Made by a program: the position numbers and the translations under genes
Notes under the pieces: generated by a model
What the model saw: only the letters and a program-made list of their open reading frames with translations
Told to the model about the DNA's origin: nothing
The model's database searches: none
Source of the DNA: Clostridia bacterium
GTDB lineage: Bacteria; Bacillota; Clostridia; Christensenellales; Aristaeellaceae
NCBI GenBank assembly: GCA_017397765.1
Contig: JAFQIB010000065.1
Coordinates: forward strand, 1-53,069
Length of the DNA stretch: 53,069 nt
Direction: 5' to 3'
In this document: positions 2,204-53,069 of the stretch, piece after piece
Layout of the letters: every line of letters begins with the position of its first letter
Numbering within the stretch: position 1 is the stretch's first letter

Positions 2204-4408
2204 ATGAAACGAATCGCTGCGTTCTTCCTGTCCATCCTGATGCTTTGTATGCCCCTGTCCGCCTCTGCCGGTTCGGGCCTGTCCACCGAGGACGCGCTCA
2301 CGATCCTCCTGAGCGGCCTTGACCGTTCTCTGTCCGGCGCTCAGCCCGGGCTGCAGCTCACGCTGACCACGCCGGACGGTGAATCCACCGCCATTGGCTT
2401 TGGCAAGACAACCACCGGCTATTCTGCCAACTATACCTCCCCCGATCTGGCGCTCCTGATCAACGAAATCAGCGCTTACCTTACCAGCGGCGGCATCACC
2501 TCTGCCACCTCCACCCAAGCGCTGCTGAATCTGCTGTCCCAGATCGCCAACAGCGGCACGCCGCAGCTGACCCCTGAGGATCTGCAGCTGCTTGCTGACG
2601 TCGGGCTGGCTTTCCTGCAGGGCCTGATGACCTCCGACTGCATCACGGTTTCCGGCAGCGGCAGCACGATGAACCTGCATATTGATCTGGACGGCCTGTT
2701 GGATCTGCTGGACACGCTGGTGCCCCAGGCGTTGTCTGTTTCTCCCGAGAAAATGGAGGCGCTGCTGGCCAAGCTGACTCCCTACCTGTTCGGCCAGCCG
2801 GTTTCCCTGGCCCAGATCACCGATGCCTGGCAGCAGTTGGGACTGCGCGATATCCAGACCGGTCTGGTGCTGGACGCCACGCTGATGTCCACAGGCCGCG
2901 TCATCGCACTGATCGCCTCCTGCATGAACTGGCATCTCAAACTGGCTTTCTCGCCGTCCGGTCTGTCCGGCACCCTGACCACGCCGGAGGGCATTGCTTA
3001 CCCCTTTGATACCAATGATCTGCAGACCGTTGCCGGCCTGCTGGCCGCTGCACCCTCTGCGATCACGGAAGAAGCCTTCCAGATCGAGCAGACCGTTGCC
3101 GCTCAAACCTACAACGGCAGGTCTTTCCCCGACTCCCTTGTCACCACCCACCTCCGCACCGATCTGGCCCTGGTCGTCCGTGACCTTTGTACCGGCCTGA
3201 AGCAATCCATCAACGCCAACGCCCCCACGGTGGATGCGCTGCTGAAGAAGTATCAGCCCTGGATCGATCTTTTCCTCTCCGGTGCCGAAGCGTCCGCTCC
3301 GCTCACTGCGGACGCGCTGATCCAGCTGCTGGACAGCATGCCCGCCCTTTCCTCCGTCCCCGGCGAGGCCACCATCGTCAACAATTACTGCTATCAGACC
3401 GTCACCATCGACGCCTTCCTTGCCAATGCGCAGTTTGAGGCGGATATCAGCACGCAGCGCAGGCAGCAGACCATTAGTGCTGCATTCCGCATCGTTGACC
3501 CGGTTGATTACTTTGAGCTTTCTCTGGACGGCTGCACCGATTACCAGGGCAATACGTCCTGCACGCTGTCCTCCTCCAAGGCGCTGGGCGGCTGCCATGC
3601 ACTGACCTTCAGCTTCTGCAGGCCCTCCGTCTACAACAGCACGCTGTCCATCGCCACCGACAACGACGCCTTCCGTCTGACGGTAGATACCACTCGGTCC
3701 GGTGACCGGCTTGATCTGCATCTGGGCAGCTTCCATCTGGCATACGCCGAGGCAAGCGTCTCCCACGGTCAGATTCAGCCGGAAATGTCCCTGCAATCCT
3801 CCTGGCCGGGCGGCTTTGTCAGCCTGCTTGTGACGGATAACACCGTTGAGTTTGATTCCAATCTGCTGGGCTTCTCCTATGTGGAAACCTGGGATACTAT
3901 CCGGATGGAGGGGTATGTCAGCGAGCACTCGGATGCCATGTACCCCAACAGCTTCACCTTCATGCTGGATGAGGAAAATGAGATTCTCACCGGCAGCATC
4001 ATCCCCTACGACGGTGACGCTGTCCACCTGACCTATCGGACCGGCAAGCTGTCCATCCTGACCGGCGGCAGCGAATGCATCATCGCCGACGCCCATACCG
4101 GCACCCCGACCCAGAATACCACCACCGTCACTGTCGACGGCGAAATTGCTGCAACGGTCGTCACCGACGTGCAGGGCCGTGACAGCATGACTATTCGCCT
4201 GTACCCCGGCGCACAGACCACTGGCGATGCGATCCGGCTGGAGCTTGCCTTCTGCGCCCCCGGACAGCCCGCCCCTGCGGATGCGGTAACCGTATCTCCG
4301 GAGGAATTCATCATGCTTTTGCAGCAGGCCTTCTCCCCCGAAGAAGCTGCGCCGCTGGCAGAAGAAAACACAGCAGCACCCGAGGCTGCGCCTGCCGCTG
4401 CAGAATAA
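2204..4408 (+). CDS. Large exported protein of unknown function (734 aa)
   Basis: I do not recognise a family. The N-terminus is a clear Sec signal peptide (MKRIAAFFLSILMLCMPLSASA, cleavage near residue 22-24). The mature part is rich in Ser, Thr, Leu and Asp with alternating hydrophobic patterns that suggest beta-structure, especially in the second half, and no cysteine cluster or catalytic motif stands out. The last 30 residues are acidic and alanine/proline-rich (EEAAPLAEENTAAPEAAPAAAE), like a flexible tail. No LPXTG anchor or C-terminal membrane helix is seen, so secretion or loose wall association is likely. RBS GGAGGT sits 6 bases before the start. The next gene follows after 16 bases, so they may be co-transcribed. 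Function unknown. Confidence 0.85.
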   Translation: MKRIAAFFLSILMLCMPLSASAGSGLSTEDALTILLSGLDRSLSGAQPGLQLTLTTPDGESTAIGFGKTTTGYSANYTSPDLALLINEISAYLTSGGITSATSTQALLNLLSQIANSGTPQLTPEDLQLLADVGLAFLQGLMTSDCITVSGSGSTMNLHIDLDGLLDLLDTLVPQALSVSPEKMEALLAKLTPYLFGQPVSLAQITDAWQQLGLRDIQTGLVLDATLMSTGRVIALIASCMNWHLKLAFSPSGLSGTLTTPEGIAYPFDTNDLQTVAGLLAAAPSAITEEAFQIEQTVAAQTYNGRSFPDSLVTTHLRTDLALVVRDLCTGLKQSINANAPTVDALLKKYQPWIDLFLSGAEASAPLTADALIQLLDSMPALSSVPGEATIVNNYCYQTVTIDAFLANAQFEADISTQRRQQTISAAFRIVDPVDYFELSLDGCTDYQGNTSCTLSSSKALGGCHALTFSFCRPSVYNSTLSIATDNDAFRLTVDTTRSGDRLDLHLGSFHLAYAEASVSHGQIQPEMSLQSSWPGGFVSLLVTDNTVEFDSNLLGFSYVETWDTIRMEGYVSEHSDAMYPNSFTFMLDEENEILTGSIIPYDGDAVHLTYRTGKLSILTGGSECIIADAHTGTPTQNTTTVTVDGEIAATVVTDVQGRDSMTIRLYPGAQTTGDAIRLELAFCAPGQPAPADAVTVSPEEFIMLLQQAFSPEEAAPLAEENTAAPEAAPAAAE

Positions 4409-4424
4409 GAAAGGAATAGCCCAG

Positions 4425-5015
4425 ATGAAATTCATGATCGCTTCCGACCTTCACGGCTCGGCCTTCTATACCCGGCAGCTGTTGGATGCCTTCCGGCGCG
4501 AGCAGGCAGACCGCCTGCTCCTGCTGGGCGATCTGCTCTACCACGGCCCCCGCAATGATCTGCCGAAAGATTACGCGCCCAAGCAGGTCATCGCCATGCT
4601 CAGCGAGGTCAAGGACAAGGTCCTGTGCGTGCGCGGCAACTGCGACACCGAGGTCGATCAGATGGTGCTCCCCTTCCCCATCCTGGCGGATTACGCCGTC
4701 ATCCCCGTAGCAGACCGGCTGATGTACTGCACCCACGGGCATCACTTCAACGTCAGCGCCCTGCCGCCCATGCAGCAGGGAGATATCCTGATCTACGGCC
4801 ATACCCACGTGCCGCTGCTGGACGTGAATGAGGAGCGCGTCTGCCTGAATCCCGGCAGCGTGTCCATCCCCAAGGAAAACAGCTGGCACGGCTATATGAC
4901 GCTGGAAAACGGCCGCTTCCGCTGGGTGGATCTGGACGGAAACATGAAGATGGAATACGATATCGCCTGGATGAGTCGGGACGGAAACGCAAAGCCGGCA
5001 GCCGACATCCGCTGA
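4425..5015 (+). CDS. YfcE-family metallophosphodiesterase
   Basis: Calcineurin-like phosphoesterase of the YfcE/MJ0936 group, which hydrolyses phosphodiesters with a two-metal centre; the natural substrate of the family is not settled. The metal-binding series is complete: D-x-H (SDLHG, residues 8-10), GDLLYHG, GNCD, THGHH and GHTH, then the NPGS motif (LNPGSVSIPKE). The 196-residue length is typical. It starts 16 bases after the large exported-protein gene with RBS AAAGGAA and ends at a strong bidirectional terminator. Cytoplasmic. Confidence 0.93.
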   Translation: MKFMIASDLHGSAFYTRQLLDAFRREQADRLLLLGDLLYHGPRNDLPKDYAPKQVIAMLSEVKDKVLCVRGNCDTEVDQMVLPFPILADYAVIPVADRLMYCTHGHHFNVSALPPMQQGDILIYGHTHVPLLDVNEERVCLNPGSVSIPKENSWHGYMTLENGRFRWVDLDGNMKMEYDIAWMSRDGNAKPAADIR

Positions 5016-17886: not shown

Positions 17887-17892
17887 TATATC

Positions 17893-17924
17893 AATTATGA
17901 ATTAGGAATTATGAATTAGGAATT
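17893..17924. repeat. Heptanucleotide tract (AATTATG/AATTAGG)
   Basis: Two perfect 14-base units AATTATGAATTAGG followed by AATT. Related GGAATTN tracts lie at 32086-32120, 44071-44086 and 44130-44160, all directly after the end of a gene. Confidence 0.85.
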
Positions 17925-17935
17925 GAGTTTGATTG

Positions 17936-18190
17936 GCCCCGGTGAATGCCGGGGCTCAGACTGTCAAAAACTCCTGGAGGTGTCGGAGGGCCCGCAGGCC
18001 CTCTGACTGTCATCGTATCCGGGGGCTTTGCCGCCGGGGCGGGGCGTTTTCGGCTTTCAGCCGAAAACATTCCTTACACGGAGGAGCGGCCGGGAGGGCC
18101 TTTCAGGCCTGACCAGCGACGGAGTGCAATCCTCGAAAAAGTGCCCGAAGCACTTTTTCGACACGCAGAGCCCCGGTGGATGCCGGGGCT
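17936..18190. repeat. MITE-like structured repeat element, full copy
   Basis: The left end CCGGGGCTCAGACTGTC-AAAAA (17949-17970) and the right end read in reverse (18154-18176, CCGGGGCTCTGCGTGTCGAAAAA) form an imperfect terminal inverted repeat. Each end carries a nearly identical 21-base hairpin (17936-17956 and 18170-18190, one difference). Inside are hairpins at 17982-18007, 18046-18068 and 18133-18161, joined by linkers TTCCTTACACG, CGGCCGGGAG and GAGTGCAA that recur at 52712-53069. No coding frame of interest. It could be a non-autonomous mobile element, a dispersed structured RNA, or both. Confidence 0.75.
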
Positions 18191-18211: not shown

Positions 18212-19084
18212 ATGTACAGGTTTTCGGTGCCGGAGAATAAGCGCGTCCGGGTGATCGTTTCGTCGGATACGGCCTGCGAGGCGGATGATCCCTTTGCCAT
18301 TGCCCACGCGCTTTTGTCCCCCAAGCTGGAGGTAAAGGCGGTCATCGCCGAGCATTTCATGTCCGAGGGCTCAATGGAAAAGAGCTATGCTGCTGCGGTG
18401 AAGCTGCTGACGCTGATGAAATCCGATGTGCCGGTGCTGCACGGTCAGGTATGGCCCAGGGACGGACAGCTCAGCGAGGGCGCGCAGTGCATCATTGATG
18501 AAGCCCGCCGGACGGATGACCGGCCCCTGTATGTGCTGCTGATGGGCGCGACCACCACCATGGCGGACGCCCTGCGCGCCGCACCTGACATTGCGGAACG
18601 GCTGACCGTCGTCACCATCGGCGGCAACGCCTACGGCAAGGACGCCTGGGCCTTCCGGGAGTTCAACTGGGGCAACGATCCGGAGGCCATCAACTTCATC
18701 CTCCGCGACACAAAGGTGCCGGTATGGCAGATTCCCTTCAGCGGCTATGCCTATGTCCGTACGAGCCTGGCAGAGCTGCAGCACCGCGTTGCACCCTGCG
18801 GCGAGGTCGGCGCTTATCTCCTCCGCCAGATGGATGAATACAACAACAGCCCCTACTCCGGATGGACAGCAGGCGAAAGCTGGTCTTTGGGCGACAATCC
18901 CAGCGTGGCGGTGGTCATCGACGACTGCGCCGGACGCTCCACAATGCAGAATGCATGGCTGATCGACGCGCAGACCGTCTATACCGAGGAAGTGCCTGAC
19001 CGCCCCATCCGCGTTTTCCACACGATGGACAGCCGCTTCGTGCTGGAGGATCTGTTCTGTAAGCTGCAACTAAATTTCGGGTGA
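18212..19084 (+). CDS. Nucleoside hydrolase-like protein
   Basis: A 290-residue protein resembling inosine-uridine nucleoside N-ribohydrolases, which split nucleosides to base and ribose using a bound calcium. The N-terminal metal-binding signature, usually DTDxGxDDA, appears as SSDTACEADDPFAIAHAL: the Asp pair is kept but the first part is changed. MGATTTMADAL and FREFNWGNDPEAINFIL match the fold's later segments. RBS AAGGAGGAG. The changed motif leaves the substrate open; a distant nucleoside-hydrolase-like role is likely but unproven. Confidence 0.8.
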   Translation: MYRFSVPENKRVRVIVSSDTACEADDPFAIAHALLSPKLEVKAVIAEHFMSEGSMEKSYAAAVKLLTLMKSDVPVLHGQVWPRDGQLSEGAQCIIDEARRTDDRPLYVLLMGATTTMADALRAAPDIAERLTVVTIGGNAYGKDAWAFREFNWGNDPEAINFILRDTKVPVWQIPFSGYAYVRTSLAELQHRVAPCGEVGAYLLRQMDEYNNSPYSGWTAGESWSLGDNPSVAVVIDDCAGRSTMQNAWLIDAQTVYTEEVPDRPIRVFHTMDSRFVLEDLFCKLQLNFG

Positions 19085-52682: not shown

Positions 52683-53069
52683 GGCCGCCCTTCCTGACAA
52701 CCATATCAAGCCTGACGCTGCTCAGCTTTCCTGCGTGCAGCGTCAGACCATCAACAAACCCTGGGAGGTGTCGGAGGGCTCGCAAGCCCTCCGACTCTAC
52801 ATCGAAAATCGGCGAGCCCCTTCGGGGCGATAAAACGGGGCGAAGCCCCTGCGCGGCGATTTTCGTGCTTTTCCGTTAGGAAAAGCTTCCTTACACGAAC
52901 GAACGGCCGGGAGAACGACTTGTCGTTTCACGAGGGAGGCGCTCGCGCCGACTAGCGAGAGCAAATGCTTGCATTTGCCGAGCATAGCCAGCGCCGGGCT
53001 TGTCCCGGTGATGGCCGAGTGACCAGTGAGTGAGTGCAAAACCTCGACAAAGTGCCTATAGCACTTTGT
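52683..53069. other. Gene-free stretch to the window end
   Basis: No gene. It holds a 10-base perfect hairpin (52712-52721 with 52737-52746) after lepB and the second copy of the structured repeat element, cut by the window end. Confidence 0.85.
52712..53069. repeat. Second, partial copy of the structured repeat element
   Basis: Shares with 17936-18190 the left end (TCAGACCATCAACAAAC), GGGAGGTGTCGGAGGGC with its hairpin (52770-52795), TTCCTTACACG (52887-52897), CGGCCGGGAG, and GAGTGCAA...CCTCG plus the final hairpin (53045-53069, incomplete). This copy has extra hairpins, for example GCAAATGC-TT-GCATTTGC near 52960. The right terminal repeat would lie beyond the window. Confidence 0.75.

Follow-up and report, generated by a model that had tools for sequence, protein, structure and literature searches.

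The target duplications made by a DDE transposase are generally constant in length. Terminator hairpins are the insertion sites of group IIC introns, which to our knowledge have neither inverted ends nor target duplications, and REP and BIME sequences are high-copy structured hairpin repeats of intergenic DNA. Within the IS1182 family, IS1272 is described as replacing its target, and duplication of the whole hairpin was drawn as a hypothetical pathway b (Wan et al., PMC5678879). For TnSha1/IS1272, the accessible text reports hairpin and terminator targets with partial deletion (Furi et al., PMC4923244). In Methanosarcina acetivorans, IS1182-type MITEs of 160-169 bp, present in 7-14 copies, were assigned to ISMac2 (Kamoun et al., PMC3852290); we take the entries 26/4 and 25/0 in Table 4 of that paper to be inverted/direct repeat lengths, by comparison with its other rows. 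In the open-licence literature, as far as its accessible portions extend, we found no report of an observed whole-hairpin target duplication, nor of the element described here.

The DNA analyzed (the window, 53,069 nucleotides) is the entire contig C17 of a 3.13-Mb draft genome (G000) of 158 contigs. It contains two copies, A and B, of a repeat whose type a preliminary description of the sequence did not identify, and which we now assign to a mobile IS1182-type element (MITE). Judged from sequence comparison, the two copies very probably represent a MITE family with ends resembling those of an IS1182-family IS, with whole-hairpin target duplications and with covarying interior hairpins.

Copy A (213 bp, plus strand, 17957..18169, CAGACTG...CGCAGA) lies between two copies of a duplicated terminator hairpin, both listed without strand: GCCCCGGTGAATGCCGGGGCT on the left (17936..17956) and GCCCCGGTGGATGCCGGGGCT on the right (18170..18190), the latter followed by a T-rich tract. 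On the plus strand, its interior comprises the hairpin H1 (17982..18007, GTCGGAGGGCCCGCAGGCCCTCTGAC), H3 (18046..18068), which ends one base 5' of TTCCTTACACG (18070), the linker with the H4 stem (18070..18129, the final part being GAGTGCAA, 18122-18129) and the terminal hairpin H5 (18133..18161). AT-rich short repeats of the GAATT type (AATTATGAATTAGGAATT) adjoin the insertion (17890-17925), and such repeats also occur in similar intergenic places at two other loci (L004 and L202).

Copy B (337 bp, plus strand) begins at 52744 and reaches the end of the window at 53069, where it is cut off because the assembly contig ends within it; its final 11 bases, CGATACGCTGA, are found on contig C72 (positions 130-140). 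The left copy of its duplicated target hairpin, a palindrome without assigned strand (52712..52746), overlaps the CAG of the element with its final 3 bases and has no T-run, which comes after the second copy on C72. Hairpins of copy B, again on the plus strand, are H1 (52770..52795, GTCGGAGGGCTCGCAAGCCCTCCGAC), H2 (52803..52865, containing nested CCCC/GGGG hairpins), H3 (52867..52886, directly 5' of TTCCTTACACG at 52887), the TTCC linker with the long stem H4 and its tandem G.A steps (52887..53039, extending to GAGTGCAA, 53032-53039) and the terminal H5 (53044..53069, closed by CGA on C72). The H4 stem of this copy is broken by a nested multi-hairpin module of 89 bp (52931..53019, no strand assigned). 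This module was seen inside B copies, a related one lies inverted in H3 of some A copies, and related modules occur alone or in arrays with a period of about 93 bp in congeners; beside the window, the places concerned include L074, L077 and G016 (contig C56, 20890-21520). The 89-bp module looks like a separate repeat family.

The first 129 bases of contig C72 are identical to the end of the window (52941-53069), and the contig continues with CGATACGCTGA, then GACGCTGCACAGCTTTCCTGCGTGCAGCGTC (its first GA being common to the element end) and then TTTTTGTG; after CGATACGCTGA, the left-end hairpin appears again, followed by a T-run. The same 129 bases are also present exactly on C158 and C151 and near-exactly on C74, C54, C77 and C35. 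Among the contigs sharing this end, the left-end hairpin of copy B is found on C72 only, and the palindrome at 52714-52744 has its sole same-arm counterpart in the draft genome at C72:139-169, with one loop base different. As C72 alone carries the matching hairpin, the stem is closed by CG and a second left hairpin comes next, as the preliminary description had forecast. It had also predicted an inverted form of the left end beyond 53069: the left-end hairpin does recur there, as a direct and not an inverted repeat, and it looks inverted because a hairpin is a palindrome. The outermost hairpins are duplicated target DNA, which differs between sites and lies outside the element. Several contigs (among them C17, C72, C158, C54, C77, C35 and C151) start or stop inside repeats, with identical or near-identical ends of 129-133 bases. 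Since contig ends lie in shared repeat ends, the MITEs fragment this assembly.

The element starts with TCAGAC(C/T)(A/G)TCAA and ends with CGA(C/T)AC(G/A)C(A/T)GA, which together form an imperfect inverted repeat. Scanning the loci for pairs of ends yielded 50 candidates; given a choice of left ends, the script preferred good ends and long repeats jointly. A flush direct repeat was present in 36 of the 50 candidates, and in 29 of the 30 whose ends each have no more than two mismatches, the exception being L113, with perfect ends and no duplication. Although hairpin fit played no part in this rule, in 29 of the 36 insertions neither end of the duplication, which is 19-38 bp long in these cases, deviates from the hairpin bounds by more than 3 nt, and duplication length correlates with hairpin length (r = 0.79; 35 of 36 insertions, stem score at least 6). 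A stem score of at least 8 was reached in 31 of the 36 insertions versus 47 of 342 downstream control windows; the laxer cut of at least 6 separates less well (35 of 36 versus 191 of 342). At L012 the duplication measures 12 bp and is not a hairpin, the hairpins at L120 and L123 are weak or doubtful, and L002, L066, L069 and one of the two insertions at L107 are beyond the 3-nt limit at one end.

The duplicated sequence varies by site and is a complete hairpin in most of the 36 insertions. Loci collected later (20 candidate rows) added four more such insertions, including two outside the genus (L258 in g49, L261 in g25). Comparison of the two hairpin copies in 31 pairs of equal length showed 16 differences among 239 unpaired positions and 24 among 594 paired ones; of the latter, 14 preserve the pair and 10 break it in the left copy. 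A T-run was found on the right of 16 of the 36 insertions and an A-run on the left of 16, with both in 8 and neither in 12, and terminators of either strand may serve as target. Where a terminator is the target, one of the two hairpin copies retains the T-run. At L091 (contig C12), two different MITEs lie in series between three copies of one hairpin. Another MITE, similar in its type of ends and in its hairpin duplication but with a different hairpin-rich interior, was seen at L097 (G000, contig C26, ending at 19041) and at L091; on C12 it shares its target with a B copy, which leaves the hairpin present three times.

The gene pair flanking copy A was located in seven congeners. In three of them (G017, G001 and G004) the flanking genes are direct neighbours separated by one hairpin, which is short in G004 and is followed by a T-run in G017 and G001. 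In G011 the alignment leaves no space between the flanking genes; G016, G010 and G009 apparently have a further reading frame at this place. The genome analyzed here has two hairpins, with copy A between them. One hairpin in congeners versus two in G000 indicates that insertion doubled the hairpin. Flush duplications in the proportions given above, and single-hairpin empty sites in three congeners, are not what target replacement of the IS1272 type leaves.

One IS1182-family transposase was detected in G000, on contig C117 (NF033551, 415 bits against a cut-off of 270), with the DDE domains PF13751 and PF01609. The left end of this IS is TCAGCCTGTCAAAAA... and its right end ...TTTGACAAGCTGA, the element beginning with TCAGCCTGTCAAAAAAGG and finishing with ...TTCTTTGACAAGCTGA. 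Left ends are alike in the start of copy A (TCAGACTGTCAAAAA) and in the C117 IS (TCAGCCTGTCAAAAA), and right ends match more loosely (CGATACGCTGA or CGACACGCAGA in the MITE versus TTGACAAGCTGA in the IS). The C117 IS sits between two copies of AACCACCCGTCAAACGGGTGGTT, with a T-run after the right one. An IS1182 IS in another genus (L174 in G056), with a transposase 56% identical to that of C117 over 449 aligned columns, also lies between two hairpin copies. Among 17 IS1182 loci (two of them, L173 and L184, too incomplete to score), flush whole-hairpin duplication was found in just these two (L163 and L174), and none of eight further IS1182 loci had it, a long repeat at L169 being an artefact of search windows that overlapped.

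The MITE forms, at 213-337 bp, are too short for a transposase of about 476 aa and contain no transposase gene. The likeness of the ends and the shared type of duplication suggest that the C117 IS may move the MITEs. An IS1182 match was found in 1 of 11 congeners (G006), at a locus where hairpin duplication was not detected; as G006 alone was matched, and without duplication, no partner is evident in most of these congeners. Within the family, IS1182 matches occur in 62 of 120 genomes, in 15 of them above the cut-off, and in the order the G000 protein is matched in 42 of 396 genomes. The right end of a B copy beside a TnpV gene (L119, C44:4474-4501) was considered as autonomous partner and rejected, having no adjacent transposase and differing flanking hairpins. 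Positions 3678-4501 of this contig hold the TnpV gene (125 bits to Pfam TnpV) and a frame of 95 aa that has no match in Pfam. At L164 (G006, contig C81), a second IS1182-family transposase gene lies upstream of a frame resembling TnpV by eye.

How does the element compare with the systems introduced at the outset? With group IIC introns it shares insertion at terminator hairpins, but it has inverted ends and a target duplication and no Rfam match. Unlike REP and BIME sequences, it has defined ends, a likely IS1182 partner and a whole-hairpin duplication. It resembles IS1272/TnSha1 of staphylococci, as far as these are covered in the accessible text, in the transposase family, in targets that are differing inverted repeats or terminator hairpins and in insertion in both orientations (PMC5678879, PMC4923244). 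The same text describes the hairpin as deleted or replaced, with no target duplication (PMC5678879, PMC4923244), whereas here the whole hairpin is duplicated and the moving DNA is mostly non-autonomous and structured. The IS1182 MITEs of M. acetivorans are likewise short and non-autonomous with an IS1182 partner, but the available part of their description mentions neither a long hairpin duplication nor a conserved interior fold (PMC3852290).

We propose that a DDE transposase would attack the folded palindrome (cruciform) at the 5' feet of its two hairpins, and that subsequent repair would copy the entire hairpin. Duplication length would then equal hairpin length because repair copies the hairpin as a whole. 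In this scheme, both the cruciform and the act of transposition are presumed steps.

Comparing copies A and B, the preliminary description had listed several paired differences, and the letters bear it out. From A to B, the innermost pair of H1 changes from C-G to T-A and another from G-T to G-C (GTCGGAGGGCCCGCAGGCCCTCTGAC versus GTCGGAGGGCTCGCAAGCCCTCCGAC); in the last hairpin, A/T at 18137/18157 corresponds to C/G at 53048/53068; the middle hairpin before TTCCTTACACG has different arms (GTTTTCGGCTTTCAGCCGAAAAC(A) in one copy, GCTTTTCCGTTAGGAAAAGC in the other); and the linkers CGGCCGGGAG and GAGTGCAA are conserved. Two copies alone prove little, and therefore further copies were gathered. 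Matches to the 3' half numbered 64, of which one false match was removed; the remaining 63 were dereplicated to 45 distinct copies, and 42 of these were aligned with MAFFT without using structure, the other three, with a module inside one hairpin, being left unaligned.

In the covariation test on collected copies for which the preliminary description had called, pairs co-vary far beyond chance among the 42 distinct copies. Given the named structure, 86.6% of cells pair, compared to 74.6% after shuffling; both sides have changed in 24 of 38 pairs versus 18.4 (a value reached by 1 of 500 shuffles), and there are 201 double-change cells versus 76. The covariation score is 0.307 versus 0.136 in shuffled data, where none of 500 reaches it, and at most 0.088 for slid structures. 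One of the five measures, the number of further pair types, was unexceptional (55 versus 51.1, reached by 43 of 500 shuffles). A test on a FastTree tree with parsimony states, H3 excluded, gave 69 branch events that alter both sides with the pair kept, distributed over 18 of 30 pairs; the null has a mean of 2.9 and a maximum of 14 when 3' columns are re-dealt, and gives 0-2 events when the structure is slid.

RNAalifold, unaided, recovers the long stem and most of H5. It does not predict H3, for which 63.4% of cells pair in fixed alignment columns, a low value caused by a shift in register of the 5' arm. When each copy is folded separately, 41 of 42 form an H3 hairpin whose end is at TTCC or one base short of it (L081 folds elsewhere, and the hairpins of L086 and L140 are weak). 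Whole H3 arms differ between copies with the hairpin retained, and hardly any variation is seen in the TTCC linker across the alignment of 42 copies. Conserved positions that are not Watson-Crick pairs occur in the H4 stem: G.A at columns 35/85 (42 of 42 copies) and 39/81 (36 of 42), A.G at 36/84 (35 of 42) and 40/80 (39 of 42), G.A and A.G at 49/70 and 50/69 (37 of 42 each), and A.C at 31/89 (42 of 42). They stand beside Watson-Crick pairs that co-vary. Where the G.A steps are lost at 49/70, 50/69 and 40/80, the replacement is a Watson-Crick pair in 11 of 12 lettered cells; at 39/81 and 36/84, this is the case in just 3 of 13, the remainder being A.C or G.G. In three other genera (L257, L258 and L259), the H4 stem, judged by eye, is an uninterrupted palindrome of different letters. 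The interior is a chain of about five hairpins in which pairing, tandem G.A steps and the TTCC linker are kept and stem letters turn over.

The conserved G.A steps suggest that the plus strand folds. G.T cells outnumber A.C cells by 32 to 15, a modest strand preference, and 28 of 36 full elements are more stable as plus-strand RNA; core folding energies favour neither strand (20 versus 22 of 42). Minus-strand RNA was first suggested by the A.C positions, which are G.U on that strand, and was abandoned, the full count being opposite. The folded strand is probably plus-strand RNA from read-through. No Rfam family reached the gathering score in the window; in permissive scans of both copies the best match was Virus_CITE_8 (25.1 bits, cut-off 80), the scan of the other copy giving 17.4 bits, and this resemblance to a viral translation element, far below threshold, was put down to chance similarity between hairpins.

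Of the two outcomes that the preliminary description had named as refuting its reading, neither occurred: the pairs covary strongly, and the sequence beyond 53069 does complete both stem and end hairpin. The explanation offered there, selection on folded RNA or DNA, is the likeliest reading of these data and not the sole one. We favour selection on a folded single strand as the most economical reading. On a rather doubtful view, the core is a free-standing host small RNA gene or 3'-UTR element that was captured between IS1182 ends. Covariation and tandem G.A steps are indeed RNA-like, and the MITE at L097 and L091 combines a different structured interior with the same kind of ends; a host gene would, however, have to be reconciled with the lack of any Rfam family at gathering score and with an even orientation to terminators (16 T-runs on the right and 16 A-runs on the left in 36 insertions).

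The main rival to selection, for the paired changes themselves, is mutation: template switching in replication can correct imperfect palindromes, one arm being rewritten from the other, which also gives paired changes. Such correction would account for H3 arms that differ wholly between copies with the hairpin retained, and for the uninterrupted H4 palindromes seen by eye in L257, L258 and L259. It should, however, erase mismatches, whereas H4 keeps its G.A positions (42, 36 and 37 of 42 copies) and its A.C position (42 of 42), and the TTCC linker is nearly invariant. These conserved positions inside the stem make correction alone less likely, and thus weakened, we consider it unlikely.

Alternatively, the hairpins could be DNA structures that serve the biology of the element itself, for example as landing sites for IS1182-type insertions that spare host genes. 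Hairpins are targeted by IS1182-type elements according to the accessible text of two reports (PMC5678879, PMC4923244), modules are nested within the element, one flank (L101) has 17 bases in common with MITE DNA, and the L091 site took two insertions. Against this, at E 1e-4 the flanks of 34 of 36 insertions match neither MITE nor module sequence, and of the two matches found, one is to the hairpin that a double insertion has in common; we prefer selection on a folded strand and regard landing sites as quite improbable. A group IIC intron or an HUH element (IS200/IS605 or REP-type) would suit hairpin-rich sequence inserted at terminator hairpins, but is hardly credible and is refuted in the main by the target duplications: related inverted repeats stand at both ends of a long target duplication, which we know of no intron or HUH mechanism to make, no Rfam match reached the gathering score in the window, and the genome has a DDE IS whose ends are similar and whose insertion shows this kind of duplication.

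In a bolder reading, a transposase that reads shape and not sequence leaves hairpin-long duplications, joining strands at the two 5' feet of a cruciform, and carries a conserved RNA (tandem G.A steps, UUCC linker) acting in mobility or in taming effects on the host; we consider this reading speculative and improbable.

In its own genome, the A query matched 51 places and the B query 42, fragments being counted apart and the lists unmerged. The B query had a match in 17 of 17 congeners; elsewhere in the family it matched 2 of 6 genomes, and in other families none of 16. A 1.5-kb query spanning copy A and the genes beside it had matches in all 18 genomes of the genus, own genome included. When up to 24 candidates per genome were scored with a covariance model built on the 3' half, at least 177 matches were obtained in 14 of 150 family genomes and 6 of 50 genera, one of the six (g7) only at 4e-4. 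A DNA pattern detected 40 stretches in MAGs deposited in GenBank under the titles Clostridia, Clostridiales or Oscillospiraceae, and many of these titles name deer, goat or sheep gut. No match was found in plasmids with the B query or in phages with the A query. An uncultivated contig classed as viral in IMG/VR (L162) contains one copy of the element core.

Together, these observations describe a small, very abundant mobile DNA of uncultured gut Clostridia. Its duplication length tracks the hairpin, and its insertions provide natural junctions for a pathway that, in the literature accessible to us, is only drawn as a possibility. Insertion is sequence-independent and takes place beside terminators, with a complete terminator left on one side, and the interior is a conserved fold without known family that occurs in six genera of one family.
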